A DNA stretch of 63,628 nt from a virus. The notes beneath the pieces are model-generated. The model was not told where the DNA came from. It worked only from the letters and a program-made list of their open reading frames with translations, and ran no database searches. The stretch is taken from IMG/VR virus record IMGVR_UViG_3300048554_000002, positions 1-63,628 of that record; one strand, given 5' to 3'. Shown here in pieces: positions 1,296 through 63,628 of the stretch; position 1 is the first letter of the stretch, and every line of letters begins with the position of its first letter. The position numbers and the translations under genes are program-made.

Positions 1296-2408
1296 CTACA
1301 CCTCCGTAGAAAAAATTGCGGCTGAATAGATGTTACCCATGCCAGCGGCTAGACTAAGAAACGGCCCTCGTGGGGCTGGCGCATCGTAGGACAAAAACAC
1401 ATCGTCGTCTTCAGTCCTATTGAGGATTTGTGGTACAATACCGCATTCCATGTCATTTAGCAACAGTCCTGTCTCTAATAACCCACTAGCGCTTAACGTA
1501 TGCCCTATTCGTGGTTTGTATGACGTAGCTACAAACTCACTAAGACTACGTTGCAACGCGGCTTTCTCTGCTTTATTATTAGCATCAGTGCCAGTCCCGT
1601 GCGTCTTTACCACGTTAACATCTTCCTTACGTACCCCCGCTACATGTAAGGAACCTTCGATAGCCTTAGAGTAGCCTTCACCATCAGGACGCTGCCCAAG
1701 CGGATTTGTGTTGTTTTCTGCAGACGTATATGCACCTAAAAACTTGGCCATAGGTGTGGACATACCTACATGTTCTTTCTCAAACACCGCTAATGCGGCC
1801 CCCTGACCTACATGAAATCCTGTGTTAACAGTATCAAACGCGGATGGTTTACGATCAGGTTCTTCTGATAGCTGTATACTAGCCTTGGCATCCCCGAAAA
1901 ACTCTAGCGAAGGTATGCACACAGAATCCTCACCCGCCAAGACAATGACCCTATCAAACCCGTAATGCCAAAACAAATTCTGCATATCCATAAGCACTTT
2001 TAAACTAGAGGCGCAGGCACTAGCATCTGTAGAAACGTGGTCGTGTACGTGAAACATGCTGGCTATTCGCCCTGCGTATATGTTAGTGAGCGTTATAAAC
2101 GGTATCTTGGTCTTGTAGTGCAGTTCCGCATCAGTATTCCTATCATATCGCCCGCTTGTGCCCATCCAGCCTTGGCTACCTGCAGCAAACATAAATGCAG
2201 TCTTACCGCCAACAGGGTTACTCACAACGTAATCTATAGTTTTTTGTAGTATAACTTTGTCAAACGCTTTGTGTGGAGGGTAGAACAACCCTGACTTAGC
2301 GCGCCTAAAAGTATCTTTTACGATATGCACGCTTTGCGGAAATGCTATATCTTCGTAAGTAGTTTTTTCCGTAGTGCATAGTGTTTCACAATGGGTCATG
2401 TATATCAT
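1296..2408 (-). CDS. Beta-ketoacyl-ACP synthase (FabF-like condensing enzyme)
   Basis: This 370-residue protein has the complete condensing-enzyme signature. The nucleophile is Cys132 in DASACASS. The first histidine is His270 in KTHGTGTDANN, and the second is His303 in KPRIGHTLSASG with Lys298 ahead of it. The decarboxylation-loop motif FDTVNTGFHVGQGAA is also present. Enzymes of this thiolase-fold family condense an acyl group with malonyl-ACP in fatty acid or polyketide synthesis. Bacterial FabF is about 410 residues, so this copy is slightly short but lacks no catalytic residue. The start codon overlaps the stop of the acyl carrier protein gene (ATGA), which implies coupled production. 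No ketoreductase, dehydratase or acyltransferase of the pathway was seen, so it must rely on host enzymes or do one condensation or acyl-transfer step. It lies between tail and internal-virion genes. Confidence 0.93.
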   Translation of the reverse strand: MIYMTHCETLCTTEKTTYEDIAFPQSVHIVKDTFRRAKSGLFYPPHKAFDKVILQKTIDYVVSNPVGGKTAFMFAAGSQGWMGTSGRYDRNTDAELHYKTKIPFITLTNIYAGRIASMFHVHDHVSTDASACASSLKVLMDMQNLFWHYGFDRVIVLAGEDSVCIPSLEFFGDAKASIQLSEEPDRKPSAFDTVNTGFHVGQGAALAVFEKEHVGMSTPMAKFLGAYTSAENNTNPLGQRPDGEGYSKAIEGSLHVAGVRKEDVNVVKTHGTGTDANNKAEKAALQRSLSEFVATSYKPRIGHTLSASGLLETGLLLNDMECGIVPQILNRTEDDDVFLSYDAPAPRGPFLSLAAGMGNIYSAAIFSTEV

Positions 2409-2692
2409 ACAACGGACTCCATAGCTGCTTCAACAGAATCAAAATCCTGCTTTTTGTTCTCAAGCATGTAATCTCGTACGGCACGTAAAGACGTTACAGG
2501 TATATTAAAATCCTCCGTCTCTGGAAGTCCGTATATATCTGACAACATTACTAATGTAAGCGTCACGTCTAAGCTATCTAACCCAATGTCTTCTTCTTTT
2601 AGGGTTACATCTAATGATTTAGGTTTAGTGTATTTGTCTAAACGCGGTTTATTTTCGCGGACGCAAGCGTCGAACAGTTCTATAAAGTCCAT
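2405..2692 (-). CDS. Acyl carrier protein
   Basis: The protein is acidic and has 95 residues. The phosphopantetheine attachment motif is DIGLDSLD with Ser40. Before it is an amphipathic helix, and after it the LTLVMLSDIYG and VRDYMLE helices expected of a four-helix ACP. Typical bacterial ACPs have about 78 residues; the extra length is an acidic C-terminal tail. It would need a host phosphopantetheinyl transferase. Its gene overlaps the ketoacyl synthase gene by 4 bases, making the two a matched pair. The 40-base gap upstream holds a weak -10-like TACAAT and a small stem. Gene symbols such as acpP are not used because the phage protein is divergent. Confidence 0.93.
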   Translation of the reverse strand: MDFIELFDACVRENKPRLDKYTKPKSLDVTLKEEDIGLDSLDVTLTLVMLSDIYGLPETEDFNIPVTSLRAVRDYMLENKKQDFDSVEAAMESVV

Positions 2693-2732: not shown

Positions 2733-3356
2733 TTAGTTATTACTTACAAACTGAACTGCTACCACTGAAGAAGGAAGACCGGGATGCGGTGTAGTCGCCG
2801 CCTGTGTTTGTAGGGTAAGATCAGTATCATCTACAGCCCAATACATTTCTATATACTGGTCTGCGAGCAAATCTATAGAAAAATTCCAAAATACTGCTGT
2901 ATGGTCGTTACCTTTAATTGAATTTTTCTGTCCGCCGTACGGCACATCTGTACCGTTTTTGTTTATCCACGTCCACAATATCGCAGTGGCCGAGTTATCT
3001 TTCTTAACCTGCATTGTCACTTGAAAGTTGTATATGCCATCAGCCGTTACTGTTATTCTAGTTTTGTTAGTTCCTTCTATAGATACACTATTCCATAGGT
3101 AGCTATTTTCAAACTCAACCGGATACCCTGTATTAGGTGCCGTTGCGGTCTGATTTGTAGTGCTGTAAAATAACCCGCGTGGTAGGTATAAGAATTTACC
3201 ACCATCATCAGAATCTAACAACGTATTTACCACGTTAAGAAACCTATTGAAGAACAAACGTAGCACGTTGCTATTCTGGTCCATGTATGGACGTTCATAA
3301 CCTTCAGGCGCTAAAGGAAGCGCGGGTGTAGCTACCTTATCTATTTCGTTAGGCAT
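2733..3356 (-). CDS. Virion protein with a C-terminal C1q/TNF-like beta-sandwich
   Basis: The protein has 207 residues. The N-terminal part (to about residue 60) has a short segment with NVLRLFFNRFLNVVN, probably a helix for attachment or trimerisation. From about residue 90 a beta-rich domain reads ITVTADGIYNFQVTMQV and later DQYIEMYWAVDD, the pattern of a jelly-roll C1q/TNF-like domain found in phage fibres and spikes. The start overlaps the stop of the preceding 615-residue tail protein by one base. A receptor-binding or tail-tip role is inferred from fold and position. Confidence 0.8.
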   Translation of the reverse strand: MPNEIDKVATPALPLAPEGYERPYMDQNSNVLRLFFNRFLNVVNTLLDSDDGGKFLYLPRGLFYSTTNQTATAPNTGYPVEFENSYLWNSVSIEGTNKTRITVTADGIYNFQVTMQVKKDNSATAILWTWINKNGTDVPYGGQKNSIKGNDHTAVFWNFSIDLLADQYIEMYWAVDDTDLTLQTQAATTPHPGLPSSVVAVQFVSNN

Positions 3357-5203
3357 TACCGCCTCCCGTCAGGGCGCATGTCAATCCTCGGTGCGCCGAG
3401 CTGCCATGTAACACCTTCTCCTGTGGACTCAACTTTCATAGCAAGCTGCCTACCACGCACGCGGGTATATATCTGCCCCGTATACGCCTCTACAGGAAGC
3501 ACAGCCGTACGGGTTATCGTACGTGAGTTACTACCACCTTCCGACAGAGGATCATTATAGCCAGACCCAGAATTGGCAAGTGGTAGTAACGTCATCGTCG
3601 CACTGGGGGAACCTGTTGTAGACCCATCAAACCGTATGTCAGGCAATATGCGCCATATAAACGCAAACTGATGGCCGTCTTCTAAGTCAAACTCTGCAGA
3701 AGCAACAAACGCGTGTATGGCTGCGGTGGTAGCTGTCTCGTTGTCATCTACACCTTCCTCGTGGTTTACGAGGTTATATGAGTATGTAGCTGCAAGCGGG
3801 TTACCCCGTAGACCGGAATCAAGCCATGCAGTGCGGGCCATTGTGCCATAGTACCAAATATCTTCTAGGTAGTTGTACACCACATAACGATCTATATTTG
3901 TCTGATCGGTAGAACAATAGAACCACCACACTTCGTGATACGACTCGTTAGTCCCTGCAAATACTTGGTCGTATTGTTGCTCGTTGAAGTCACCAAAGAC
4001 AAACTTACGCAGGTCACAGCGCAGGGGTTGAGTACGCCCGTCATACTTGTAGAACTTATCTTTACCCATCCAGTAGGCTACGCCATTAGCATAGGCTACA
4101 CAGTTTTGTGATGCTGTAGATATGTTTTCACCAACAAGCTGCGCAGACCACACTACAGGAGCGCCCACATATTGTAGCGAATAGAGAGCCGCGTCAGTCC
4201 AGACCAGCACCTCCTGTCTAGCTTGTTTAGAGGCTATAATCTCGGTGCCACGAGATAACGTAAGGAACCCTGCTTGTGATGTAACCGATGGTGTCCAATC
4301 TACTACACTACCTTGATCCGACCATCGCACCAACATAGGGTTGACTGTGGAACTACCAAACTCATTTGTACCGAACGCAAACACAAAACGATTGATGTCG
4401 GATACTTCTAAAATACGTTGGCTTGTGGGTACGTTGCTTGCGCCACCAAGGGTTGATAGCTCTACACCGCGGGATGTTAGTCCGCTAGTTGCATCCCAAT
4501 AATATATCGGCCCCCCACGAGGCCCAAAAACAAGGTCTTCGCCAAAATTAGACTGGCTCCAAAGCCTGATTGCATCTGTAGATGTGTCACCTACACCCCA
4601 CGTACCAGAACCCCAAGAAGAAGCGCCCCAACCTGTAAGGGGGATTGCAAACGCGGGACCAATGTTGATCTGATACGCCGCCGTAACCGTACCACCACCT
4701 GTTGCAGTAGAGGAAGCTGCAGAACCCGCATCTATTGTGTATTCGTTGGTAGTGGTAGTAAGAGTTATCTGATACTCACCGTTTAGAGTAAGCCCACCCA
4801 CGGCGCTAGCACCACTATAGGTAACAAAATCTCCGTCTGTATAGCCGCCATTCGCATCGGTAACCGTAACAATAGGAGAACCTGAAGTTGTTGCGAACGG
4901 GTTTGTGAGCGTCACTGTAGCACGTAATGGGGTGATGTCGTTATACGCTCCACCGTTCTCAATGTAGTATTTTAGGTTGGTGCCGACGGCAATAAGGTTC
5001 TGACTACCTAGTGTTACCCAATTCCATAATGACCTACACACACCTTGAAACGTGGTAGCAGATATACGTTGCCAACCACCTATCTTCTCAGGTGTACCCT
5101 GCCGAAAGCGTATCTTGTCGCACTCGTACCAGCCACCTTCGCTTGTGTAGCGTGTGTTTTCGCGGTTCACACCAGACTTTAAAAGTAGCTTCTTTAGGGG
5201 CAT
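3356..5203 (-). CDS. Phage stabilisation-type tail protein (P22 gp10-like)
   Basis: The protein has 615 residues and begins MPLKKLLLKSGVNRENTRY, followed by GGWYECDKIRFRQGTPEKIGGW. I recognise this as the usual start of podoviral tail or stabilisation proteins that close the portal channel. Regularly spaced WGSGTWGVGD, VLVWTDAALYSLQY and VWWFYCSTDQ segments suggest a beta-propeller. A Gly/Thr-rich insert lies at about residues 95-170 (TNPFATTSGSPIVTVTDANG). It follows the endolysin gene with an 8-base gap and overlaps the next tail gene by one base. Confidence 0.83.
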   Translation of the reverse strand: MPLKKLLLKSGVNRENTRYTSEGGWYECDKIRFRQGTPEKIGGWQRISATTFQGVCRSLWNWVTLGSQNLIAVGTNLKYYIENGGAYNDITPLRATVTLTNPFATTSGSPIVTVTDANGGYTDGDFVTYSGASAVGGLTLNGEYQITLTTTTNEYTIDAGSAASSTATGGGTVTAAYQINIGPAFAIPLTGWGASSWGSGTWGVGDTSTDAIRLWSQSNFGEDLVFGPRGGPIYYWDATSGLTSRGVELSTLGGASNVPTSQRILEVSDINRFVFAFGTNEFGSSTVNPMLVRWSDQGSVVDWTPSVTSQAGFLTLSRGTEIIASKQARQEVLVWTDAALYSLQYVGAPVVWSAQLVGENISTASQNCVAYANGVAYWMGKDKFYKYDGRTQPLRCDLRKFVFGDFNEQQYDQVFAGTNESYHEVWWFYCSTDQTNIDRYVVYNYLEDIWYYGTMARTAWLDSGLRGNPLAATYSYNLVNHEEGVDDNETATTAAIHAFVASAEFDLEDGHQFAFIWRILPDIRFDGSTTGSPSATMTLLPLANSGSGYNDPLSEGGSNSRTITRTAVLPVEAYTGQIYTRVRGRQLAMKVESTGEGVTWQLGAPRIDMRPDGRR

Positions 5204-21016: not shown

Positions 21017-21391
21017 CTACGCCCTCTGTATGCCCGTTGGATCAGCTACAACAGCCTCAATAGAGTCGTCGTTCATTAGCCGATATTCTATACCACCAAT
21101 AGTAAACCGTGTGCCCGAGTTCATACGGAACATCACAAAGTCACCTTCTTTACACCAAGGTCCATCAGGAAAACGGTCTTTGTCAGCGTATGCGCCTGAC
21201 CCCATATCCACGACAAGGCCAATAATAGACATAATGTGGTCTTGGGTTTTGGCGGTATCTGTTTTAATAATAGAAGTCCCCGATATGGTTTCTTCTGGTT
21301 GCGGTAGTGCTACGAGTACGCGGTAGCCTACGGGTTTTGGGAGTTGTAACTCCAATTCAGCATCGCTGATTTTAACTGCTGCTTCAGTCAT
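21017..21391 (-). CDS. groES: GroES-like co-chaperonin
   Basis: The protein has 124 residues. The Cpn10 fold is marked by KPVGYRVLVALPQPEE, a mobile-loop-like SGTSIIKTD, IGLVVDMGSGAY, CKEGDFVMFRMNSGT and a final GIEYRLMNDDSIEAVV. Phage GroES proteins (for example T4 gp31) replace the host co-chaperonin so that GroEL can fold the large capsid subunit. ATG at 21391 (MTEAAVKIS) is chosen; it overlaps the preceding gene by 8 bases. No phage GroEL is present, so host GroEL must be used. Confidence 0.87.
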   Translation of the reverse strand: MTEAAVKISDAELELQLPKPVGYRVLVALPQPEETISGTSIIKTDTAKTQDHIMSIIGLVVDMGSGAYADKDRFPDGPWCKEGDFVMFRMNSGTRFTIGGIEYRLMNDDSIEAVVADPTGIQRA

Positions 21392-21581
21392 CATCGTCTT
21401 CCATATAGTTTTTCGCAAGGTCTTCAATGTAAGATTTGGTGGCTTCGAGACCCCGAATTAAGCCAACAACTTCCCTATAGTTTGCATAGTCTTTAGGTGA
21501 CCCTGCGTGTAGGAAACTCTGTGCAGACGATATATCGCCGTTGATTCTATCTTTCAGCACGTCAAAGACGGTTTTTGCCAT
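21384..21581 (-). CDS. Small hypothetical protein between portal and GroES genes
   Basis: The protein has 65 residues and is helical, starting MAKTVFDVLKDRINGDISSA and ending in the acidic tail MEDDDD. Short proteins with this pattern are common directly behind phage portal genes. Function unknown. The stop is shared with the GroES start region in an ATGACTGA overlap. Confidence 0.77.
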   Translation of the reverse strand: MAKTVFDVLKDRINGDISSAQSFLHAGSPKDYANYREVVGLIRGLEATKSYIEDLAKNYMEDDDD

Positions 21582-29652: not shown

Positions 29653-30744
29653 ATGAACAATGCACAACAAATGTACGCCCTCGACCTAGATCAGTGTGTA
29701 ACCGCGATCAAAGCAGTGGGTAAGCTACGCACCATCCTCATGGAAGGTGACATGGGTAACGGTAAATCATCAACCATACACACACTAGCAGATGACCTGC
29801 CCGATCACACGCCCTGCTACTTTGACTGCACCACCAAAGACATCGGTGACTTGAACCTGCCCAACATGGCGGTGATGAACGAGCAAGGCTATGTGACCTT
29901 TGTGCCCAACGAAGAATTGGGTGCGCATCTGGGTAAGCCGATCATCCTTATGATTGACGAGCTAGGCAAGGCCAACCCTGCTGTTAAGAACGCACTGCTA
30001 CGCGTCATGCAAGAACGTACGGTGGGTAGCATCAAGCTGCATCCTGACAGTATTGTGTACGCGACGACCAACAAAGGGTCCGAGGGTGTGGGTGACATGT
30101 TACCACCACATGCACGTAACCGTGTGTCCGTGGTACAGGTGCGTAAGACTGACCATATGAACTGGATCGAATGGGGTATCAACAACGGTATCGACCACAG
30201 CTTGCTTGGTTGGGTCAAAGACAACCCGCAACTCATGGCATCATTCGAGGAAGTCAAAGACCCTGATGAGAACCCGTACATCTTCCATCCCAAGCAACAG
30301 CGCAAAGCGTTTGTAACTCCTCGTACGTTACACGCTGCGTCTGACATATTACACCAACGTCATGCGTTCGATGACCAGACGCTAACGGCTCTGCTGATGG
30401 GTACTATCGGTGACCGTGGTGCTATGGACCTGATGGCGTTCGTCAAACTGGCTGACCAACTGCCAAGCCTACAGTCTATCAAGGACACGCCAAGTACGGC
30501 CAAGGTGCCTGACAGTGCCGCAGGTATTTGTATGGTTGTGTATCGTACACTCGCGTCTATCGAAGCTGACTGGCTTAACGCGTGGATGGACTACATGCCA
30601 CGTTTGGACGTGGAGGCACAGGGTATGTTCGCCAACGGTGTACGTGCACCCAAGTACAGTAAGCAGTCAATGGTGATGAAGAACAAGAAGTTCACCGCAT
30701 GGGCAATGCAGAACAACTACATGTTCGCAGCAGACAAACGATAA
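29653..30744 (+). CDS. MoxR-type AAA+ ATPase
   Basis: The protein has 363 residues. Walker A is GDMGNGKSS (32-40), Walker B LMIDELGKAN (99-108), and the sensor is YATTN. The order matches MoxR/CobS-like AAA+ proteins that act with a VWA-domain partner to remodel or insert metal into target proteins. The partner gene follows after a 30-base gap that holds palindrome copy 8. Its target in infection is unknown. Confidence 0.88.
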   Translation: MNNAQQMYALDLDQCVTAIKAVGKLRTILMEGDMGNGKSSTIHTLADDLPDHTPCYFDCTTKDIGDLNLPNMAVMNEQGYVTFVPNEELGAHLGKPIILMIDELGKANPAVKNALLRVMQERTVGSIKLHPDSIVYATTNKGSEGVGDMLPPHARNRVSVVQVRKTDHMNWIEWGINNGIDHSLLGWVKDNPQLMASFEEVKDPDENPYIFHPKQQRKAFVTPRTLHAASDILHQRHAFDDQTLTALLMGTIGDRGAMDLMAFVKLADQLPSLQSIKDTPSTAKVPDSAAGICMVVYRTLASIEADWLNAWMDYMPRLDVEAQGMFANGVRAPKYSKQSMVMKNKKFTAWAMQNNYMFAADKR

Positions 30745-30762
30745 TTCGGGCAGGTGCCCGAA
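30745..30762. repeat. Palindrome copy 8, TTCGGGCA-GG-TGCCCGAA
   Basis: Begins right after the MoxR stop codon, one base before the AGGAG of the next gene. Confidence 0.9.
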
Positions 30763-30774
30763 AGGAGAATGACA

Positions 30775-31974
30775 ATGTTAGCAATAGGTAAACAACTAAC
30801 GGAAGAACAACGGCTATCCAAAGCAGTCGTTGATATCATGCCGCGCATCCCTGAGATATCGGGGTTGCTGATGATCGGTGAACGTAAGATTGACGAGACG
30901 GTGCCAACAGCCTGTACCAACGGACGTGACGAGTGGTACGGTAGGGCGTTCGTGGCTGCACATAACGATGCAGAGTTACGGTTCGTCGTGATACACGAGG
31001 TATTCCACAAGATGTATCGTCACTTGGTAACGTGGGCGCATCTGTGGAAGATATGTCCGCGCACTGCCAACATCGCAATGGACTACGATATCAATGGCAA
31101 GATCATTGACGAGTACGGCCAAGATGGTTGGGTCACGATGCCCAAGGGTGGATGCTATGATCCTAAGTACAAGGGTTGGGGTACGGCTAAAATCTTCTGG
31201 GATATCTATGATCCTGATGCAGCCAACGATCAGCCGCAAGGTGGTAAGCCTGACGATGGACATCCTCAAGGGTTCGACGATCACGATTGGGAAGGTGCAC
31301 AAGACATGACACCCGACGAGCAGCGTGAGATACAACGCGAGGTGGACGAGGCCATACGTCAAGGCTCACTTGTTGCAGGTAAGATGGGCAGCGGTGGCAG
31401 TCGTGACATGGAAGAATTGCTGAAGCCCAAGGTGGATTGGCGCGAGGTGTTGCGTGAGTTTGTGCAAACAACCTGTGCAGGTAGCGATTACTCGACGTGG
31501 AAGAAACCTAACAGGCGTTACGTGGGAGCTGGTATCTACATGCCAAGCGGTATCTCAGAACAAGTTGAGTGCATCGCAGAACACAACGACATGTCTGGTT
31601 CCATCGGCAAGCGTGAACAGCAGATAATGATTAGTGAGTTGGTTGGTATCTGTGAAGCGGTCAAGCCTGACGAGTTACACGTAAGCTATTGGGATACGAA
31701 AGTCTGTGGGTACGAGAAGTATACCAACGACGAACTGGATACCGTAGCGGCCAAGACGAACCCTGTGGGTGGTGGCGGCACTGATGTAACCTGTGTGCCT
31801 GAGTACATGAGTGCGAACGGTATCAAGCCGCAAGCGTCTGTCGTGTTTACAGATGGCTACCTCTACGGTGGTTGGGGTACGTGGGATCATCCTGTGCTGT
31901 GGGTGATCGTGGATAACAAGAACGCCAAGCCCGATCACGGTGTGACGGTGCATGTACAATCGGAGGATTTATGA
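30775..31974 (+). CDS. Metallopeptidase plus VWA domain protein (DUF2201-like)
   Basis: The protein has 399 residues. VVIHEVFHKMYRH gives the zinc motif HExxH (His74-Glu75, His78). The C-terminal part has a MIDAS-type NDMSGSIG (Asp272, Ser274, Ser276) and FTDGYLYGG, marking a von Willebrand A fold. This combination is the DUF2201 type, normally paired with MoxR ATPases. ATG at 30775 is set by GGAG with a 7-base gap; the earlier GTG lies in the palindrome. Possibly a chaperone-protease pair acting on host proteins. Confidence 0.86.
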   Translation: MLAIGKQLTEEQRLSKAVVDIMPRIPEISGLLMIGERKIDETVPTACTNGRDEWYGRAFVAAHNDAELRFVVIHEVFHKMYRHLVTWAHLWKICPRTANIAMDYDINGKIIDEYGQDGWVTMPKGGCYDPKYKGWGTAKIFWDIYDPDAANDQPQGGKPDDGHPQGFDDHDWEGAQDMTPDEQREIQREVDEAIRQGSLVAGKMGSGGSRDMEELLKPKVDWREVLREFVQTTCAGSDYSTWKKPNRRYVGAGIYMPSGISEQVECIAEHNDMSGSIGKREQQIMISELVGICEAVKPDELHVSYWDTKVCGYEKYTNDELDTVAAKTNPVGGGGTDVTCVPEYMSANGIKPQASVVFTDGYLYGGWGTWDHPVLWVIVDNKNAKPDHGVTVHVQSEDL

Positions 31975-47593: not shown

Positions 47594-47619
47594 CCCCCGC
47601 CACTGTGCGGGGGATTTTT
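47594..47619 (+). terminator. Terminator at the meeting point of the two arms
   Basis: CCCCCGC-CACTGT-GCGGGGG followed by ATTTTT ends the plus-strand arm. Its T-run touches the stop codon of the minus-strand 2,209-residue gene. For the minus strand there is no T-run after the stem. Confidence 0.8.
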
Positions 47620-50600
47620 AGTCGAATAGCTGTATCCCCTGATCGTATTCGTCCAAGCTACGCAGCATAAACGGCGTGTATTCAATACCACCCACCATCT
47701 TCTTAGTACGCGTATCGAACGCTCTGCGTGACTTCTTGATTGTATCAGGCATGATTAGGTTTTTACTACGTGCACTTCTAGGTAACTCACGATTATAGTC
47801 TCGTATCTTTTTCAACGCTTCACGGTATCCAGAGGCATCACCATTAGCAGCGGCAATATTCGCAGCGCGTAACAAACGTGTACGTTCGGTTCTAAGGAAC
47901 GCATCTTTCCGCCGCTCGTTCTTGTTTATCTCATAAGTTTTTATGACATCAGCGTTCGCAAACCCGGCAAACTGCCCGAGTACCTGCATCACCCCAATAT
48001 CTTCTACCACGGCGTCACCTCTACGGGTTTCGACTTCACCTGTCGCAGCCTGTTTACCGCCTTTGATTATGTTTCTCGCCGCCGCGGGTAGGATTGCTTC
48101 CGTACCTTTAAGTATTTCGCCTTCTTGTACCAAGCCTACACCACGTTCAATACTCAACCCGATACCTACGATTGGACCACCTAGCTGCTCAATCAGAGTA
48201 AAGAATTGTGATTGATCCTTCTCAATGATTGGTGGGCGGTACAGCAGACTGTTCAGGCTGATACGGCTTGCAACCTCTACACCCAAGGCTTCGTTTATAA
48301 CGCCTTTGTACAAACCTTCGCCTACAGTCTTACGGAGCATTGCATCGAAATCATCTTCGTCATCATCTACAAACAAGTCGTATATCTGACCCAACGCACC
48401 CATCAACGGCATACCTGCTACACCTGCGAACAACCCTGTAGATACAAGGAAGCGACCTAGCTGTTTCTGTGCGATGCGACGATTAACTTTATCGTCTTCT
48501 GTCTTGGCAGTCTTAAACGCCTCGTCTGTCATACGCGCCATCATGTAGTATTTACTGATAGCGAACCGCTTAAACAACATGGCCATGTTGCCGATACCCG
48601 ACTGTGCATAAACTGGACGCCCTGCAGAAGCAGTAGCACCAAGGGTAAACTCTGTCTCTGTCACCGCAGTCATGGCTGCTTGACGCTTTTCATCTATGGT
48701 AAGCTCGCTGCCCTTTTCCGCTTCCGCTTTACTCTTACCCGTTTTAAGAAGCGCAGCGGCTTTCTTTGCTTTTATACTATCTACTTCCAACATATAGGTA
48801 GCTGTCATGGCGACTTCGCGGTTGTAACGTTCTGCATGGTGAAACAGGAAGCTGTTCCATGAGTTTATCTTTTCCATGACATCTTTGGTGTTACCCATGT
48901 CAAGCTGCTCTTGGTTCAGCGTCTGGTTTATCTGCGCGTTTTCAGTAGCTACCTCTGCCAATACCTCTATATCTCGCAGTTCCTTTGGTAAGTCCGCTGC
49001 GTCGAAGTCATAATTTGCTATGGAGAACCCAGCCATACCCGTGTTGACTTTGCGGTCCGTCATCTTGCCGTTTGGCCCCATGACCTGCACCATCTTTTCT
49101 TTTGGGCTACGCGCAAGGATCGCGCTTGCTGAACCCATTGCCTTCATGGCAGCTTTGTCACCGTACTTGCCCATCAACCGTGGGGCGGTACTCATAAACA
49201 CATCGAATGTGGTGATAGCCGCGGAGGATAAGTTGAAGCCCATGGTCCAACCGTAACCTGCAGAGGTGGCAACTTGCGACCAACGGGGCACTGTAGGACG
49301 CTGCGCAAAGTTTGCTATCTGCTCAAGTTTATCTCGGAACAAACCTACATCTGTGGATGTCTTTTCTGCAGGGGCAAACTCACGGAGTTCGTTCTTAAAC
49401 CCCTGTATCTTAGCACCGTATTGCATCTGCACGATCTGGCGGTTGTAGTCACGTCCCTTGTTCTGCACCATGTCTACAAGATCAAAGGCTTCCTCGGCCA
49501 TCCCTGTGGGTGTCTTGTCACCCAAGAAACCACGTACATCTCCACGTTTGCGGAACGACTGCATAAACGAACGTTCGGGCATCATATCCAAAGCCAACGC
49601 AGCAATACTGTCAATGGTGGTGGCGTCTACATCGTTGGCCTTCAGTGTCTGTAACACGTTAAACACAAAAGAATCGGGCGGGGCTTGCGAGAAACTAGCC
49701 ACGGTACTAGACGTACCTTCTTCCCAATCTTTTAAGATATACGCACGGCGCTTATCGCCTTGTGGAAGTTTAGCTAAAACCCCATCGTTGTATTCTTTTA
49801 GGTTGCGTTTAGCTTTCTCCCGCAACCGTTCAGACGTAAAGTATTCTACAAAACGTTCTACCTTACCTGTCTTTGGGTCTATGGTGTTATACGCTAGGCG
49901 AAAGTTACCTTGACGGGTCAACGGAGCAAACGGTTTGATAACCCCACGATCCATGTTCAATAGCTTCGCTAGTTTGTCTATGGCTTTCTTACGTGTGGCT
50001 GCGTCTTTTATAGTAGCTGCAAGGTTTTCATCTATCGACTTCATAACTTCAGCCGTGCTCGCCTCGAATGTGTTGGTGACTACCGCGTATAGATTTTGAC
50101 CTTCTTTACCTAAACTCTTCCACTTCTTATGTAAGTCTGCGTGGATCGCTCGGGCTTCTTTTTCGTTATACCCTTCCGCATTCTTGTCACGCCCATAGGC
50201 TTTATTAAAGTCAGCCTGTCTGGGATCAATACGTTCGTATGTTGCGTTCGGCACCAAGGCTTGCAACGTGTTGAATTTTTCAAGGTTGTCTTTCTTAAAC
50301 TTGCGTAGATCAGCTACGATAGGATCAAGCCGTTCGTTACGCTCCCGTAACGCGGAACTCATACCGTTGATGATGTTGTTTAATTGTGGAGCCATAGGTA
50401 TTTTAGACTCCGCCAACCGCCCTAAGATGTTTACGGGCTGCAAATTCAAGAATACTTTTTTGGCCACTGGGGGTATCGCGGAACCCATAAGCTCTTTGGC
50501 TTGATCGTAGAAGTTTTTATCCGCGTTTATAACCTTTGCGCCTAGTTCATTGATGGCCTGTGCCGCACCTGCAGGTGTTTTTATCTTCAGATACATCTTA

Positions 50601-53600
50601 GTAGCTGCGCGGCCATCGTAATCTGCGGCGATCATTTCTTGCACAAGCTCGTCGATTGCTTGATACGCAGAGTTATCCGGTACGTTCGGGCGTCCAAGCA
50701 GTGTCCTAACAAAATTAGAGATGGCTCGTACCATCTGCTGCCACGGATTACGTCCTTTGATTGTAGTCAACTTCAGTTGTGTTTGGAACTCAGGGTTGGA
50801 CAGCGCCTCTGCAACGAACTCATCCATCGTGGTCAGTCCGTATTCGTCAGCTAGTTGTTCCTTGGTTTCTTCAAACAACCTGTTTAGCTTTTTAGTCAGA
50901 GGATGCGATTTGTTTGCGATGATCCCAGACGTAGCCGCGTGTAACGCTTCGTGCAATAACGCGTGCCCGGTAAACCCTGTGTCTTTGTCTAGGTATATCG
51001 TGTTATCAGCAGGATCGAAGTAACCAGCTACCGGAGCGCCATCTTCCGCACGCAGGTTTTTTCTAGCTACAATCTTGGTGCCGCCCAAAGTTTCCGCGAG
51101 GCGCTTGGATAGCAACGCTATATCTTTCGACGGAGTAGTGAACCGCAATGCGTTCAGCGCGTCCACCAAGTTACCTTTGTTGATAGCATCTTTTACAGAC
51201 GGGCGTATCGGTGTGTCTATCACCAGCTCGGCGGGAAGCTGTAAGTCTTTTGCACTGATAATTTCTAGTTCCGCTAATTCTTCAGGAGTTAGCCTAGACC
51301 GTGCTTCAGCCACCCTATCTTTAGCATTATAATTAGCCTGTGCAGCGCGTGCTTGGCTTTCCATCTGTATTCCTGCCTTAACGTAGCTTTGTAGCTCGGC
51401 AGACATGCCCGTGTCTTTAGATGTTAGCCAATCAGTAATTCTACGCGCACTGGTTTTGCCCATGGATGGCAAATTGTTTTTTGGGTCTGACGTATAAAAC
51501 TTAGCCAACACAGGGTCATCTTTGTATTCTTGTGCGTTGCGTGTTCTGTCAGGCGTTTGCATACCTACATCGTATATTATTGCGTCTAGCGCAGCGGTAA
51601 ACGTAGGGAACTGATTGAAGTATTTTTGTACTGAGTTTGCAAGTTGTGAGCCTTTTGCTTTTGTGCGTTTGGCATCCATCAACTTGAGTATTTTGTTTTT
51701 GTCGGAAGCGGTCATAGGCGCTGCAGGCGCATCCTTATCAGAATCTGCTTTACCTTGACGTTGTATATCTGCATCTTGTTCCGCGAATTTTGCTGCTTGT
51801 GTTGTATCAGCTTCTTTTGCCTTGGCTGTTTCCGCACGCTTCTTGGTGGCCGCATCGGCCTTTTGTGTGGCGAACGTCTGTTTTGTAGTTTCTTTCACGG
51901 GTTCAGGCGCTAACGTAGGGTCTTCCACAAACTGTGGTTTACCTTCTGCGACTAGCGTTTGTTTGTTCACACGTACTCGAGTGCCGGGTATCCGTTGACG
52001 TGTTACAGGGCGATCTGGACCTTGGCGCTCGCGTCCTTCTAGTGTAGTTGGCTGCGGTTCCGCTGGTGCATCAGCTCTCCCAACGCCTCGCACAGTGCGT
52101 CCCACTCCTCGTCCGTCAGGTGCCGTAGTATCGGGGGTACTAGGAGCGGCTGCGGTGGGTCCGTCTGCACTGCTTGGTCCAACAGGCGGAACGCCAACTC
52201 CACTTGTTGCTGTGTCAACTGGTCTAGCATCTAATGGCTCCCCTGCATCTTTCATGGTGAGTGTAGATTTTTGAATAGTTTTAGGTTTTACGGGGTAAAC
52301 AAATTGTTCCTCGTTTGCTGTATCCTCCGCAAAAGCTGTGGGTGTATCTGGCTCTCTTAGCGGTCTAGCCTGCTTAATCTCTGCTACTTTATTCCGTACC
52401 GCTAACTTTTCTTGCTTGGTCAGCGTAGGTCGAGTCATACCCGCAGCAGTTATAGCCTTTTCTACAGCTTTCTCAGTATTTACTACGCTACTGGTTGTAG
52501 ATGCGGCTAACGCTTTGTCTACTACTTCCTTACGTCGATCCGCGGCTTGACGAAACGGGGCTTCCTGTGCGGCCTTAACTTGTGGGGCAGCGGTCCTAGC
52601 AAACAAATCTTTTTCTTGCGCCTCGGCCCTACCACGCCGTACCGCTGCATTGTCTTGTTGAGCAAGTACATCTAATAAATCAGGCTGCGCTTCGTCAAAC
52701 TTCCTTACACCTTCTAAAGTTTCCGCTACAGGTTCTTGTACTTCTCGTACTCTACCCTGCTCGTCTAACTCTACTCTTGGTGCTGCAGGACGCGCTGCAT
52801 CTCGTGCCGCGGCTTCTGGTGATCTTCTACGTTCCGCTTCTAATTCTGCGGCTAACAAATCAGGTTGTTCAAACGCTGCTACATCGTCCCGTTGTAAGGC
52901 GGCTTGTTCCTCGCGTTTACGCGCTTGTCCCTGTGGGTCTAACTTATTTGCAGCCGCCTGAGTCACAATGGAAGGATCACGTTCTACTACAGGCGTGGTA
53001 AGCTCATCCTCTATTTCTTCTTGTGCACGTTGCGCTAATTTAGTGCCCCGTTTTTGCATTTCTTCGGAAACAACAGTTTCAAGATCAGGTAAAGATATAC
53101 CTGTTCGCGCTACGATATCTTCCATCTCTCCAAGGGCCACATCACCCTCGGCGTCAATTATTCTGCCTATATCTGCACGGGCTTGCGCATTACCCAAAGA
53201 TTTACGTTGGTCGGCAATTCGTTTTGGTGGTGCCGGTAGGAGTCCCGCAATACCCGCTTCTGGAGACGGTAGTGCCAACACTTCTTCTTGCGCTGGCGCA
53301 TCTGCTGTAGGTTTAGTTTTACGGCTGTTTGTGAACGCGTCTACGAGGAATTGGATGGTGGCACCTGCACCGCCGCCTAGCGCAGCGGACTCGCCTGTGC
53401 CTTCTAGTATGGCCCGCTCTGGGTTATACCCACGCTCTGCTAAGTTTTGTACAATCTCTGCGGTAGCTTCTTGCGCTGCTTCTGCGCCACCTGTAACGGC
53501 GGCGTTTGATATGCGTTGCCCCATAGTCTCGACTACTTCAGGGCCAAGTTGATCCATCAACCTGTTAATCACAGGGACATCTACGGAACGCATGAAGCGT

Positions 53601-54247
53601 CCTAGTGGTGCGACTTCCAAAAGACCAAACGGTGCGGCCTGACGTATTGCACGGTTACGTTCTTCTTGAGTTGCGCCTGCTGCACGGGCGCGTTCACTAG
53701 CTTCGCCTGCTGCGGTTCCTACACCTAATAGTGCGCCTGCACCTGTGGCAATCCCCGTAGTAGCGGCAGCACCAAGAGACACAGGAGCAGCAGCAATACC
53801 CGCAGCAATACCCGCAATAGGTGCAGCAAAGCCTGCAATAGAACCAAACACACTACCAATTTTGTAGCTTAGATCATCCTGATCGCCACCTTTAGGTTTT
53901 ATGGCGTCAGCAATACCTTGTATCTTGCTACGTGCAGCGAGTTCAGCTTCTTCATCTAGTAAGGTAGCGGCACCTAGTGCGGCCATCTCGCCTGTGCCTA
54001 CAAACCCTGCGCCAAAACCTTTTCGTAGATCGCCAAGTACACCTGTTTCTTCAGGAATAGGAACAAAGTCTGGTATGCCTTGTTCCATTTCGGCTTGTCG
54101 TGCTTCTTGCCGCCGTAACCGCGCAGCTTCACGGTCTGCGCGTTCTTGTTTATTTACGAGGTCTACTAAGTCTTCTTTGGATGTACCTCGTGGAGCTTCG
54201 ACTTGAACCGTCGCCCCATCGCCAAAGGTGAGCGTATGTATAGCCAT
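47618..54247 (-). CDS. Giant internal virion protein with a metallopeptidase motif (2,209 residues)
   Basis: The N-terminus has a short beta-grasp-like start (IHTLTFGDGATVQVEAPRG), then Gly/Ala-rich, membrane-like stretches (about 110-190). A long low-complexity region rich in Ala, Glu, Gln and Pro follows (about 320-850). Near residue 1095 HALLHEALHAATSG contains HExxH, a zinc peptidase signature. The region about 1650-1950 resembles the LPD38-type domain of large polyvalent phage proteins (GNMAMLFKRFAISKYYMMA), followed by a hydrophobic span. It is likely ejected with the DNA. A second gene is nested at 52039-52230. Confidence 0.88.
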   Translation of the reverse strand: MAIHTLTFGDGATVQVEAPRGTSKEDLVDLVNKQERADREAARLRRQEARQAEMEQGIPDFVPIPEETGVLGDLRKGFGAGFVGTGEMAALGAATLLDEEAELAARSKIQGIADAIKPKGGDQDDLSYKIGSVFGSIAGFAAPIAGIAAGIAAAPVSLGAAATTGIATGAGALLGVGTAAGEASERARAAGATQEERNRAIRQAAPFGLLEVAPLGRFMRSVDVPVINRLMDQLGPEVVETMGQRISNAAVTGGAEAAQEATAEIVQNLAERGYNPERAILEGTGESAALGGGAGATIQFLVDAFTNSRKTKPTADAPAQEEVLALPSPEAGIAGLLPAPPKRIADQRKSLGNAQARADIGRIIDAEGDVALGEMEDIVARTGISLPDLETVVSEEMQKRGTKLAQRAQEEIEDELTTPVVERDPSIVTQAAANKLDPQGQARKREEQAALQRDDVAAFEQPDLLAAELEAERRRSPEAAARDAARPAAPRVELDEQGRVREVQEPVAETLEGVRKFDEAQPDLLDVLAQQDNAAVRRGRAEAQEKDLFARTAAPQVKAAQEAPFRQAADRRKEVVDKALAASTTSSVVNTEKAVEKAITAAGMTRPTLTKQEKLAVRNKVAEIKQARPLREPDTPTAFAEDTANEEQFVYPVKPKTIQKSTLTMKDAGEPLDARPVDTATSGVGVPPVGPSSADGPTAAAPSTPDTTAPDGRGVGRTVRGVGRADAPAEPQPTTLEGRERQGPDRPVTRQRIPGTRVRVNKQTLVAEGKPQFVEDPTLAPEPVKETTKQTFATQKADAATKKRAETAKAKEADTTQAAKFAEQDADIQRQGKADSDKDAPAAPMTASDKNKILKLMDAKRTKAKGSQLANSVQKYFNQFPTFTAALDAIIYDVGMQTPDRTRNAQEYKDDPVLAKFYTSDPKNNLPSMGKTSARRITDWLTSKDTGMSAELQSYVKAGIQMESQARAAQANYNAKDRVAEARSRLTPEELAELEIISAKDLQLPAELVIDTPIRPSVKDAINKGNLVDALNALRFTTPSKDIALLSKRLAETLGGTKIVARKNLRAEDGAPVAGYFDPADNTIYLDKDTGFTGHALLHEALHAATSGIIANKSHPLTKKLNRLFEETKEQLADEYGLTTMDEFVAEALSNPEFQTQLKLTTIKGRNPWQQMVRAISNFVRTLLGRPNVPDNSAYQAIDELVQEMIAADYDGRAATKMYLKIKTPAGAAQAINELGAKVINADKNFYDQAKELMGSAIPPVAKKVFLNLQPVNILGRLAESKIPMAPQLNNIINGMSSALRERNERLDPIVADLRKFKKDNLEKFNTLQALVPNATYERIDPRQADFNKAYGRDKNAEGYNEKEARAIHADLHKKWKSLGKEGQNLYAVVTNTFEASTAEVMKSIDENLAATIKDAATRKKAIDKLAKLLNMDRGVIKPFAPLTRQGNFRLAYNTIDPKTGKVERFVEYFTSERLREKAKRNLKEYNDGVLAKLPQGDKRRAYILKDWEEGTSSTVASFSQAPPDSFVFNVLQTLKANDVDATTIDSIAALALDMMPERSFMQSFRKRGDVRGFLGDKTPTGMAEEAFDLVDMVQNKGRDYNRQIVQMQYGAKIQGFKNELREFAPAEKTSTDVGLFRDKLEQIANFAQRPTVPRWSQVATSAGYGWTMGFNLSSAAITTFDVFMSTAPRLMGKYGDKAAMKAMGSASAILARSPKEKMVQVMGPNGKMTDRKVNTGMAGFSIANYDFDAADLPKELRDIEVLAEVATENAQINQTLNQEQLDMGNTKDVMEKINSWNSFLFHHAERYNREVAMTATYMLEVDSIKAKKAAALLKTGKSKAEAEKGSELTIDEKRQAAMTAVTETEFTLGATASAGRPVYAQSGIGNMAMLFKRFAISKYYMMARMTDEAFKTAKTEDDKVNRRIAQKQLGRFLVSTGLFAGVAGMPLMGALGQIYDLFVDDDEDDFDAMLRKTVGEGLYKGVINEALGVEVASRISLNSLLYRPPIIEKDQSQFFTLIEQLGGPIVGIGLSIERGVGLVQEGEILKGTEAILPAAARNIIKGGKQAATGEVETRRGDAVVEDIGVMQVLGQFAGFANADVIKTYEINKNERRKDAFLRTERTRLLRAANIAAANGDASGYREALKKIRDYNRELPRSARSKNLIMPDTIKKSRRAFDTRTKKMVGGIEYTPFMLRSLDEYDQGIQLFD
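52039..52230 (-). CDS. Nested gene inside the giant virion gene, different frame
   Basis: A 63-residue frame lies on the same strand as the 2,209-residue gene, within its low-complexity region. The product looks like a real helical protein (LTQQQVELAFRLLDQAVQTD, LTDEEWDALCEALGELMHQR). The ATG at 52230 has GGAG exactly 7 bases upstream, the spacing seen at most genes of this phage. Similar short proteins with a DEEWDAL pattern accompany such giant genes in other marine phages as far as I recall. Function unknown. Confidence 0.66.
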   Translation of the reverse strand: MLDQLTQQQVELAFRLLDQAVQTDPPQPLLVPPILRHLTDEEWDALCEALGELMHQRNRSQLH

Positions 54248-57005: not shown

Positions 57006-57692
57006 TCACGCGGGTATAAATTTCTTAGGGTCTATCTCTTTACCCTGTTTATCGTTGCCTGTACGGGCTTTGCGTACACGACGCATCATGTCTTGTAATA
57101 CTTTAGCACCTGCATCGGAGTTACCGTTGCCTAGATGGCTTACAACATCCGCAGGAATAACAAACTCACCATCACTTAGTCGTGCTTCTTGCTTACCTTC
57201 AATGTTAGCAGGAACTTTGTCAGCCATTCCATCACTAGCACCATCAAGATATTTGCCTTCTTTTAACTGCGCAATACCCCCTGCAGCCATCCCTGTGGGT
57301 TCTTCCTGTACAGGTTCTGGAATACGTGGACCACCGGGTCTTCTACGTTCTTGTCGTGCAGGGTTAGCCGCGTTTAGTGCCGCCAAACCTTCCGCAGACA
57401 TTGGTGTTGCGGGAGCCTCGCCCTTTGGACGATATTGTGCCTGCGTAAAATACCGCTGCCCACCACTTCCGGGTCGTCTGTTAGGATCATACGTGCTAGG
57501 TACAGTTTCGCGCTGTACTTCGTACTCAGGAATATCGCCTTGGTAACCTGTTTGTGGGATGTTAGCTTGCCCAATACCAGACTGGTTTAGTAAGTAACCG
57601 CCTCCAAGACTTACAGCCGCACCAAGAAGATCAAGTTCCCCGTCTTCACCTGAAACAAGTCCTTTGAGTGCATTGTCTAACCAACTAGCCAT
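57006..57692 (-). CDS. Virion-associated protein with the LSDGEFVIPADVVSHLGNG motif
   Basis: The protein has 228 residues. An N-terminal Gly-rich hydrophobic segment (LLGAAVSLGGGYLLNQSG) and a Pro/Arg-rich middle lead to EARLSDGEFVIPADVVSHLG. That motif recurs in internal structural proteins of marine phages. A basic end follows. The gene overlaps the stop of the giant gene by one base. Confidence 0.8.
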   Translation of the reverse strand: MASWLDNALKGLVSGEDGELDLLGAAVSLGGGYLLNQSGIGQANIPQTGYQGDIPEYEVQRETVPSTYDPNRRPGSGGQRYFTQAQYRPKGEAPATPMSAEGLAALNAANPARQERRRPGGPRIPEPVQEEPTGMAAGGIAQLKEGKYLDGASDGMADKVPANIEGKQEARLSDGEFVIPADVVSHLGNGNSDAGAKVLQDMMRRVRKARTGNDKQGKEIDPKKFIPA

Positions 57693-60600
57693 TACATATC
57701 TCCAAGTATTCTTAGTAGCATATCATTTTCATCCTCAACCTGTCCACCCTCTGCAAAGCCACTAGCAAAAGCCAACGGACCCGCGGGATTATTTGCAGGT
57801 CGTGTAGTGGGCGCTCGTGCAGTTCCGTATGGACTTACAAACTTTTGTGCCTGTCCTTGGTCCCTGAAGATAGACTCAAAGCTGTAAGGTGTTATGTCCG
57901 CTAACGCATCAGGGGTTTTAACATCTACGCGTCTTCCGCCTATGTCCTCTGCTTGCATTAACATGTTTGCCAAATCATTTACGTTCTGTTGCTGCGTTTG
58001 CGTGTTAATTTTTGTGTCAATCTGGGTGTTCAGATCAGTAATCATATCGGTGATTGCGTCCGTATTTGCGTCTATCTCGCTGTATATACCTGTAGCGGGA
58101 GTGAACATGGACGTATCTGCAAGGGTAACATCTTCTTCACCCTGTAATGCTGTTTCTAACAGAGTTTGGTCATTTATGTCAATGATACCATCCCCAGTAA
58201 CATCATACTGCGTGATTAACTCCGCGCTGACATTTTCTTGCGCGATTAAGTCGATTACGAAGTCTATGTCTTCCTGTGTAACTTCTCGTGCAGGTTTACC
58301 AACAAGGTCTGCTACCGCGTCGATATCTGCACCAAGGCTGGCCTTTACGTCACCTATAGCAGTTGTAAAACTTTCCGTTAACTCGTCTTTAGTAGTACCA
58401 AGTTCTGCGAGTATGTTTGTTTCTGTGGTGCCCAGCGCGGCGGATAGTTCCGCAAGTGCGGCATCGACATCACCGTCATTCTTCTCAATTAATTCAGTTA
58501 GGCGTGTCTCTACGTCACCAATTTCCGTGGTTAAGCCTGCTACGTCCTCGGCAACATCCGCCACGTCCCCAGCAATACCTGCTACATCTTCTTTTACCTC
58601 TGCAACGTCCTCGGCTACAGCGTCTATTTCACCGCTAAGTTCTTCTTTTGTTAGCCCAAGCTGCTCCAACATAGCATCTTCAGTGAGGCCAAGGTCTTCA
58701 GTTAGTTTGTCAATCGCAGCTTGTAACGCCTCGTCGCGTGTAGCGCCTTCCTCTAACTCTTTGTATATCCCTGTAGCTTCTTTGGATTCATCTTCTGGTG
58801 TATTCGGGTTATCCTCAACGGACGGTGAACCCATAATAGACTTAATCACGTTAAACGTAGCAGTCGGCATATACGTGGTAAGCTGTTCACGTTGAAACGC
58901 CTCAAACCCTGCCGCGTCATAATCTTCGGACTCAGGATCAAACTGCCCTACAAACCGATCTACATCTTCTTGTGTTACATCTACAAGGCCCAACTCTTCG
59001 TAGGCTGCACGTACTTCACCAGCGTCAAAGAACCTTGGGTCTACAAACTCGTCGATGGCGGCTTTTTGTGTAGTCTGGTAGTTTTCGTCATTTACCTGCC
59101 CAGTAAACGCTGCAATATCTTCCTGTGACGGTTGATACCCGATAGCACTTAGGAACTCTTCTGCTTCTGCTGCGGTTACCTGCCGTGGGTCAACGTAGCC
59201 ACCGATAGCACTTGTCTGCGTTTCTTCTGTCTTAGAAGCCACAAACTGTGCGATTTCTTCTGGTGTTGCGGTATATCCTGTATCTGCAAAGAACTGTGTA
59301 GCTTCTTCTAGGGTGGTCGCTAACGGGTCGTATTCTGCACGCGCTTCCGATAGTTTTTCGGACGCGTAATTCTCCGCTACACCTTGACCTACATATGTGG
59401 CCGCTAGGGCGTCAGTTAGGGTAAGCCCTTCTTCATCGGCAATAGCCTGCACTTCTTCACGGGTAACCTGTCGTGGGTCTACATAAGACGCGATAAGTCC
59501 AGACTGTGTAGTTTCTTCAACCTGCGCAACAAACTGCTCGACCTGTTCATCTGTCGGTTCATATCCAAGATTTGTAAAGAACTCACGCGCTTCTTCCGCC
59601 GTGACCTGCCGTGGGTCTACGTAGGTTCCAACACCTGTTTCTGTAGTAGTCGCAAAGTCTTCTTCGCCTTGACCTACAAAATCTGCTACTTCTTCATCGG
59701 TAGCTTCATATCCTAGCGCATCAAACAATGCCTTGGCTTCGTCTGTGGTGACCTGCCGTGGGTCAACAAACTCTGCAATGGCGGCTTTTTGTTCTTCTTC
59801 AGTTTTAGACGCAACAAAGTCCGCAACCTGCTGGTCTGTAGGTGTGAACCCTTGAGCCTCAAAGAATTGTTTGGCTTCCGCAGTGGTAGTCGCTAGTGGG
59901 TCAAACTCGGCGGTAGCTGCAGCAAGTGTAGATTCTTGATCTTTTTGCCCAAGATACGTAGCGGCCAAGGCTTCTGTAAGTGTAAGTCCTTCTTGATCTG
60001 CAATGGCTTGTACTTCGGCTTGTGTGACGAATCGCGGGTCCACATAATCGGATATGGCTGTCTGCTGCTCACTTTCCGCTACTTGCGCAACAAAGTCTGC
60101 AACCTCTTCGTCGGTAGGCGTATACCCAAGGTCAGAGAAGAACTTGCGAGCTTCTGTATCAGTTACCTGTCGTGGGTCTACATACAGCGCCGTAGCGTCT
60201 TTCTTGTTAGTCTCGAAGTTTTCAGTGCCTTGCCCAACGTAGTTAGCGACTTCTTCATCTGTAGGTTCGTACCCTTGATCTTCAAAGAACTTACGGGCTT
60301 CTGCTTCGGTTACCTGTCGTGGGTCTACATAAGACGCGATGGCCTCTTTCTGGTCGGCATCTGGGGTTGCGCCCATATACGAAGTGATTTCTGCTTCTGT
60401 CGGTGTATAGCCTAAATCGTCAAAGAACTGTTCGGCTTCTGCGCGGGACGTACCTTGTGAATCGTACTCGGCTGATATTTCCGCAACGGCTGCGGCTTCG
60501 TCTTTCTGACCTACATATGCTTCCGCTTGCTCATCGGTAAGCGTTATACCCTCTGCAGCGGCGGCGGCTTTTACTTCGTCAGCGTCTAAGAATTTTGGGT

Positions 60601-63600: not shown

Positions 63601-63628
63601 TAGACGTAAATTGTGACGCGGAAACATC
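57692..63628 (-). CDS. C-terminal 1,962-plus residues of the 2,208-residue internal virion protein
   Basis: This is the main part of the gene that starts at 825 and crosses the circular join. The first 600 codons here are helical (AEAY, KYKTDYDTYTAQI). A membrane-like region follows (about 61050-61460 in the DNA: AAASAGFGGAALAKNILG). Thirteen tandem repeats of 45-50 residues lie at about 58880-60720 (unit: ARKFFSDLGYTPTDEEVADF ... YVDPRQVT). Then come coiled-coil stretches (DVAGIAGDVADVAEDVAG) and a dockerin-like calcium loop (DVTGDGIIDINDQTLLE). The C-terminus is GGQVEDENDMLLRILGDM. It probably leaves the virion with the DNA. Confidence 0.88.
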   Translation of the reverse strand, partial: DVSASQFTSIISKYTGVSETMNKFLQENAGFDEGQAIVMTNALTNAATVALEGNPELSSDAFFAKWDEYGMEALKDIVDRPVDAAIDKVTGASSATQEAANALNEASANAVSAAENYNATQVAIQKKVIEQERLEGIYNAALKAYNQNPTQATVDALNSAAGAYQTFADQFKSDYDNTLKPALDKYKTDYDTYTAQIPELDAAYTAKTKAMMSDIDDLDAAMKPVYDKATLAAALSLRPNFDAEAYKEFLGQDVDNVAEHFLLNGQQGPANKSEADATLDAIRLSTVENALAAKGLTLASLEPGQLAKYLAYADKEIKNAASITGLDLDKFANTMVADAALTPELTTSLKDAGFIPQSTEDYNVFLSGEYIKLDAKNSDGSNVFLDTTGMSGDEVKDLLSANGYSTNNIVNVGNAFKDAFDGGAGDPAFDKPSLSAVDAAATDFKNNPPEATLDTVTFGAGVDVGTLTSGGAVLVNTDGKLSWELPSTKQEKLGETNVSSVASSANPNLDVVDVAFNALYGPLAFKEVPQGFSYLSNDKMTAFTEDGQISVKNLPPASGVVVATIAGLDDNQGKQFDEDTGGTLWSVYNKLKQVYLDETPEDQQEAFGNAASVVTGATGEMLQAISGLATLVGANPNNTVGQTAKNLLALSGDLRSDAWVAGAEDMQKRSQDYDKEWRQNNPGKEPSTVQKGWLKAQSIWGNLTEHPVQFLAENVASEILQEIPILIVSGGVGNVAKAALLQGGEAYAKKFATKAAVGSAVALDAAEAFGGTAAGAFDETYANAIAQGMSEQEATDLAMDTAQKAGTIALFTTAASAGFGGAALAKNILGDNASEFAGDAFQKLGKKIQDGGTVAIKEGSTEFIEEALPQLFTATVNSQIDPNYDVAGSVFENGFMGAVSGYGVGGTLYTGNAVADALMSLNPTVVNTVKNAGSAEAATAALNTLGITDTVILNNVLNSTYDTMYVSTNEAAKIFKDANPGFEPTDAEIESFVSNRPESDVAAAVASYIDPKFLDADEVKAAAAAEGITLTDEQAEAYVGQKDEAAAVAEISAEYDSQGTSRAEAEQFFDDLGYTPTEAEITSYMGATPDADQKEAIASYVDPRQVTEAEARKFFEDQGYEPTDEEVANYVGQGTENFETNKKDATALYVDPRQVTDTEARKFFSDLGYTPTDEEVADFVAQVAESEQQTAISDYVDPRFVTQAEVQAIADQEGLTLTEALAATYLGQKDQESTLAAATAEFDPLATTTAEAKQFFEAQGFTPTDQQVADFVASKTEEEQKAAIAEFVDPRQVTTDEAKALFDALGYEATDEEVADFVGQGEEDFATTTETGVGTYVDPRQVTAEEAREFFTNLGYEPTDEQVEQFVAQVEETTQSGLIASYVDPRQVTREEVQAIADEEGLTLTDALAATYVGQGVAENYASEKLSEARAEYDPLATTLEEATQFFADTGYTATPEEIAQFVASKTEETQTSAIGGYVDPRQVTAAEAEEFLSAIGYQPSQEDIAAFTGQVNDENYQTTQKAAIDEFVDPRFFDAGEVRAAYEELGLVDVTQEDVDRFVGQFDPESEDYDAAGFEAFQREQLTTYMPTATFNVIKSIMGSPSVEDNPNTPEDESKEATGIYKELEEGATRDEALQAAIDKLTEDLGLTEDAMLEQLGLTKEELSGEIDAVAEDVAEVKEDVAGIAGDVADVAEDVAGLTTEIGDVETRLTELIEKNDGDVDAALAELSAALGTTETNILAELGTTKDELTESFTTAIGDVKASLGADIDAVADLVGKPAREVTQEDIDFVIDLIAQENVSAELITQYDVTGDGIIDINDQTLLETALQGEEDVTLADTSMFTPATGIYSEIDANTDAITDMITDLNTQIDTKINTQTQQQNVNDLANMLMQAEDIGGRRVDVKTPDALADITPYSFESIFRDQGQAQKFVSPYGTARAPTTRPANNPAGPLAFASGFAEGGQVEDENDMLLRILGDM
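63494..63628. repeat. Overlap with the window start, second copy
   Basis: Same as bases 1-135, with A at 63502 where base 9 has G. The circular length is 63,493 bp. Confidence 0.93.

Follow-up and report, generated by a model that had tools for sequence, protein, structure and literature searches.

An acyl carrier protein and ketoacyl synthase gene pair in environmental phages, linked to genes for a predicted GNAT-fold protein and a giant internal virion protein

Introduction

The virus record IMGVR_UViG_3300048554_000002 from IMG/VR, which was analysed over its whole length of 63,628 bases (referred to as the window), raises the question of why an acyl carrier protein (ACP) and a fatty-acid-condensing enzyme are encoded within a virion operon. 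The original prediction, made from the sequence alone, described an ACP with Ser40 in the DSL motif and a FabF-like enzyme with intact Cys132, His270, Lys298 and His303, encoded as a pair with a 4-base overlap between a tail protein gene and an internal virion gene. It left three possibilities open: that the phage pushes host lipid synthesis at the end of infection, that it makes an acyl product which modifies a virion protein, or that the pair has been reused as a structural or injected factor. To clarify this, the identity of the genes, their conservation and their co-occurrence in related phages were examined.

Identification of the ACP and the ketoacyl synthase

Both open reading frames are present with the predicted coordinates and residue numbers, and the observation is therefore confirmed. 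The ACP is encoded at 2405–2692 (−, 95 aa) and the synthase at 1296–2408 (−, 370 aa), and the two genes overlap by 4 bases. The synthase matches the Pfam families Ketoacyl-synt_C (4.2e-18) and ketoacyl-synt (1.5e-7), and both scores exceed the cut-offs of the superfamily PF00109/PF02801 (65.9 against 20.8 and 31.7 against 20.8 bits). It also shows profile similarity to solved FabF-type enzymes. The predicted model (pLDDT 84.5) has the thiolase fold and matches FabF structures over about 360 residues with Z of about 40, the match to S. pneumoniae FabF (2rjt) giving Z 40.4 and an rmsd of 3.3 over 360 aligned residues. In the alignment with E. coli FabF, the phage residues C132, H270, K298 and H303 fall on the active-site Cys, the first His, the Lys and the second His, respectively. 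The location next to an ACP gene resembles bacterial fab operons. However, the enzyme shares only about 20% identity with FabF, its N-terminal half is shorter (Cys at position 132 instead of 163), the gate motif GFGG is replaced by GMGN, and the gene is located in a virion operon. The NCBIfam profiles recognise it below the equivalog cut-offs, with 98.1 bits against the 493.75 bits required for FabF (TIGR03150).

The identity of the ACP was less obvious from the single sequence. PF00550 was not listed for the window protein, and its score against TIGR00517 was 14.2 against a cut-off of 70.45, although a relative at the locus designated L138 does pass PF00550 (22.8 against 20.8). The profile of the 30-member family matches solved ACPs with a best E-value of 1.2e-5, and all 60 listed hits are ACPs. 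Like AcpP, the protein carries the DSLD motif with Ser40. It differs in its length of 95 aa with a C-terminal extension and in the positions equivalent to Glu41 and Glu47 of AcpP, which are hydrophobic, small or otherwise non-acidic in all members.

Genes surrounding the pair

Upstream of the pair in the direction of transcription lies a gene for a 615-aa stabilization-type virion protein (3356–5203, −; phrog_3287, 6e-67), whose homologues are annotated as stabilization protein. It is followed by a gene for a 207-aa protein (2733–3356, −), which is variable in the relatives and was not detected in some of them. The gene immediately downstream of the synthase (827–1294, −) encodes a 155-aa protein that was not described in the original prediction; the large internal virion gene comes only after it. 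The latter starts at position 825 with the N-terminal 275 aa (1–825, −), comprising an amphipathic-looking N-terminus and a conserved domain, runs off the record at base 1 and continues in frame at the other end with the remaining 1,978 codons (57692–63628, −). The joined frame of 2,253 codons is open, a 200-aa stretch over the join aligns end to end with relatives at 76%, and relatives possess uninterrupted giant ORFs of similar length. The record thus appears to be a complete circular map.

The claim that no other FASII gene is present was supported for the part that was examined. No ACPS-type phosphopantetheinyl transferase (PPTase) and no malonyl-CoA:ACP transferase was found in the window, while both searches found their families in 10 of 14 control genomes, and none was seen among the neighbours scanned with Pfam and PHROG. 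Elsewhere in the window, a 2,209-aa protein (47618–54247, −) with an LPD39 domain (Pfam, 7e-12) and a C-terminal match to DarB-like antirestriction proteins (phrog_10089, 1e-36) is probably another large injected or virion protein. By eye, the gene at 21017–21427 (−) near the capsid genes encodes a GroES-like co-chaperonin; a gene annotated as chaperonin 10 kd subunit is present in the related phage record MW202545. Also by eye, a MoxR/CobS-type AAA ATPase followed by a VWA/metallopeptidase-like protein, a CobS/CobT-like pair, is encoded at 29653–31974 (+).

Distribution and conservation of the pair

One scan of IMG/VR returned 28 relatives of the synthase, and an alignment-based scan returned at least 555 encoding stretches. 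In annotated phage records the only full-length relative is MW202545.1 from an uncultured phage (Manatee Spring phage). This record has the same order of ACP, synthase, GNAT and giant protein genes at 53% synthase identity, and its synthase is named 3-oxoacyl-ACP synthase, while the ACP and GNAT genes are annotated as hypothetical proteins. The phage synthase family corresponds to phrog_35856, to which no function is assigned in PHROGs. In a pattern-based scan of 84,980 bacterial and archaeal species genomes the only close hit, at 50% identity, is a phage-like contig binned with a Balneolaceae MAG (L031). Outside phage-like contigs the relatives are remote, with about 23–33% identity and one 94-residue stretch at 42%.

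In 94 of 94 loci with the synthase, a number that includes repeat fetches of some contigs, the ACP gene lies directly upstream with the same 4-base overlap, and the GNAT and giant virion genes follow in those loci long enough to tell. Counting distinct sequences, all 72 readable synthases keep the Cys, the His of HGTGT, the Lys and the second His, and all 81 readable ACPs keep DSL. The single non-matching synthase and ACP strings are most likely the window's own copy read on the wrong strand. Synonymous change is near saturation, and the dN/dS of the synthase is about 0.06–0.15 where it could be estimated. Around the invariant DSLD the ACP drifts to 25–40% identity. This is the pattern of a retained enzyme and carrier and not of free decay. 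The absence of a thiolase fold or a free loss of Cys132 or Ser40 in relatives had been named beforehand as evidence against an enzymatic reading; both points came out in favour of it. One synthase (L016:3326–4438) is diverged from that of the window over its first half but identical to it over the second half, and is followed by a nearly identical GNAT, which points to recombination inside the gene or to a chimeric assembly.

The predicted GNAT-fold protein

AlphaFold2 with an alignment of 29 sequences gave a confident model of the 155-aa protein (pLDDT 92) with the helix and strand order of the GNAT superfamily. VIA-align gave Z 11.9 to RimI over 116 residues with an rmsd of 2.3 Å and Z 10.0 to the AHL synthase TofI, and nearly all of the top Foldseek rows are GNATs, with the AHL synthase BjaI also among the similar structures. 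A shared fold, however, shows no function, and the protein is regarded as a candidate acyltransferase. The conventional CoA pyrophosphate loop [RQ]xxGx[GA] between strand 4 and helix 3 is absent. Even a relaxed motif was found near the site in only 5 of 136 loci, the window not being one of them, and by position these 5 look like chance matches. Loss of the loop was considered as a mark of ACP dependence, but this was rejected, since members without an ACP lack it too. The polar residues E42, N55, T56, D79 and T80 are invariant across distant members, which suggests a working site.

Relatives of the tail gene carry annotated acetyltransferases in or near the same slot without ACP or synthase, namely roseophage CRP-902 (Pfam GNAT, 3e-8), the uncultured MW202675 and Octadecabacter virus DB2. 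A profile comparison of the GNAT family with the CRP-902 protein nevertheless found nothing. In T7, gene 13, a probable scaffold protein by its Pfam name, occupies a comparable slot between tail gene 12 and the internal core genes. A profile comparison found no similarity between T7 gp13 and the GNAT family, so that only the slot can be compared.

Nested co-occurrence of the genes

Loci with a detectable GNAT, fetched either by the synthase or by the GNAT, comprise 108 with ACP, synthase and GNAT, 15 with ACP and GNAT only, and 13 with GNAT only. All 15 ACP–GNAT loci keep DSL, and in 14 of them the ACP stop overlaps the GNAT start by one base. In the fifteenth, L158, the gap (2201–2275) encodes a short peptide that resembles synthase residues about 247–267. 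This is an apparent scar of synthase loss with ACP and GNAT kept, however an assembly artefact in this short contig cannot be excluded. No difference in the N-terminus of the giant protein between cassette types was seen in the few compared.

To avoid conditioning on the cassette, related phages were then sampled only by their tail gene, the stabilization-type gene. Of 50 loci long enough to judge, 9 have ACP, synthase, GNAT and the giant N-terminal domain, 5 have ACP, GNAT and giant, 16 have GNAT and giant, 5 have the giant only, and 15 have none. In this sample the synthase never occurs without the ACP, the ACP never without the GNAT, and the GNAT never without the giant domain. The Fisher values for these three associations are 8e-7, 2e-4 and 7e-9, respectively, not corrected for the relatedness of the loci. 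On the tail-protein tree the synthase, ACP, GNAT and giant domain change state 5, 7, 7 and 9 times, so this is not one lineage. Corrected for relatedness, the association rests on 4–5 supported independent pairs per trait pair; the second trait goes the same way or does not differ and never goes the other way, but with so few pairs the sign test cannot reach 0.05. Phages with nearly identical tail genes differ in the cassette. The locus L173 is 98% identical to the window in the tail gene yet has only a GNAT, and L120 is 96% identical and has ACP and GNAT without synthase. In the related phage L239, in the region about 370 to 1560 bases after the tail gene, a different 230-aa protein occupies the ACP/synthase position, followed by a 167-aa protein that may be a diverged GNAT and then by the giant protein.

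Proposed role of the cassette

We tentatively propose that the ACP, the ketosynthase and the GNAT-fold protein form a phage-specific acyl-transfer cassette that serves the virion. An ACP needs AcpS for its pantetheine arm, KAS enzymes condense acyl and malonyl groups on ACP, and some GNAT-fold enzymes (RtxC/HlyC, LuxI) take acyl groups from ACP. Late in infection the host AcpS would convert the phage ACP into holo-ACP at Ser40, and host FASII would supply an acyl and/or malonyl group. The synthase, using its Cys-His-His-Lys site, would elongate or select the acyl chain on that ACP. The GNAT-fold protein would then transfer the acyl group to a virion protein, most likely the giant internal (ejection-type) protein encoded immediately downstream, and the acyl group would help that protein to insert into or cross the host envelope during genome entry. 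In this view, the optional nature of the synthase, and then of the ACP, fits a core GNAT reaction that can run on host acyl donors and is refined by phage-specific ones. What the analysis establishes are the gene identities, the predicted folds, the conservation of the active residues, the gene overlaps, the conserved gene order and the nested co-occurrence; pantetheinylation, condensation, the use of acyl-ACP by the GNAT, the acyl group, its target and the role in entry are inferred.

A precedent for this route exists. RtxC/HlyC enzymes have a GNAT fold without CoA-binding elements and use acyl-ACP instead of acyl-CoA (PMC8339906), and CdiC, a member of that family, lipidates a delivered effector and helps it to engage the target cell (PMC8510554). 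Podovirus ejection proteins cross the host envelope and carry membrane-spanning elements (PMC8954989). The phage GNAT resembles the RtxC/HlyC family in its predicted fold without the usual CoA-binding element and in being encoded beside a large protein, which here is inferred to be the target, with acyl-ACP as the proposed donor. However, no sequence link to that family was shown, and the catalytic His/Asp dyad is not evident, since no invariant His is present among the 30 aligned members as judged from the alignment. In the phages, moreover, an ACP and a ketosynthase are encoded in the same cassette. Many phages have the GNAT without ACP or synthase, so the GNAT does not depend on a phage ACP everywhere, and it may be structural. 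Adjacency of the genes can also arise from shared regulation or from exchange of a linked module. A literature search found no report on phage protein lipidation by acyl-ACP in the library searched. The furthest-reaching form of the proposal is a nearly self-contained lipidation pathway, with its own ACP, chain-setting ketosynthase and ACP-dependent GNAT acyltransferase, which acylates an ejection protein for insertion into the host envelope during genome entry. Such a virion protein lipidation system built from type II fatty-acid-synthase parts is not excluded but remains doubtful.

The interpretation given in the original prediction is thus partly supported, since of its three possibilities the modification of a virion protein gains the most support from the synteny and nested co-occurrence with the GNAT and giant virion genes. 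The reading as auxiliary metabolic genes (AMGs), which raise or shift host fatty-acid synthesis late in infection, is favoured by the intact FabF-like active site and by previous reports. ACP genes and acpP-fabF-fabG sets in marine phages or prophages (R22Y, Erythrobacter phage R6L, Rhodobacteraceae prophages) have mostly been read as lipid AMGs (PMC11705849, PMC8224337), and fabF reads in marine viromes were read the same way (PMC10653327); no cassette with a GNAT and a giant virion gene was found described there. Several points make this reading unlikely without excluding it. Neither a PPTase nor a malonyl-transferase gene was found in the window, and the synthase is remote from bacterial enzymes and not a recent host copy. 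Glu41 and Glu47 are partner-docking residues of E. coli AcpP, but in all 81 distinct phage ACPs the equivalent of the former is L/M/I/F and that of the latter is never acidic. The pair also has a fixed place among virion genes and tracks the GNAT and giant genes.

Structural or assembly reuse, with acyl-ACP and the GNAT-fold protein acting as assembly chaperones or virion parts, as ACP does in mitochondrial complexes, and with the synthase conditioning the ACP, is likewise not excluded. The comparable slot of T7 gene 13 and the common occurrence of GNAT-only phages agree with it. It is nevertheless considered unlikely, since the invariant catalytic residues in 72 distinct synthases speak against a purely structural synthase and, together with the polar invariants of the GNAT, fit chemistry better. 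The synthesis of a small N-acyl product, for example an acyl amino acid or an acyl-homoserine-lactone-like signal, is suggested by the resemblance of the GNAT model to TofI and BjaI and by the fact that LuxI-type enzymes take acyl chains from ACP. This appears the least likely possibility, as RimI and other acetyltransferases fit the model as well or better, the genes sit between virion genes, and the GNAT tracks the giant virion gene.

Phage ACP and fab genes are usually filed as lipid auxiliary metabolic genes. Here, a large and widespread family of environmental phages ties an ACP and a ketosynthase to a predicted GNAT-fold protein and a giant virion protein, which suggests that a custom acyl group is attached to a virion protein rather than that host lipid synthesis is boosted. 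If confirmed, the proposed acyl transfer would link fatty-acid chemistry to phage genome delivery, would suggest why some phages carry lone ACPs, and would offer a compact ACP–acyltransferase system to study protein acylation in laboratory hosts.
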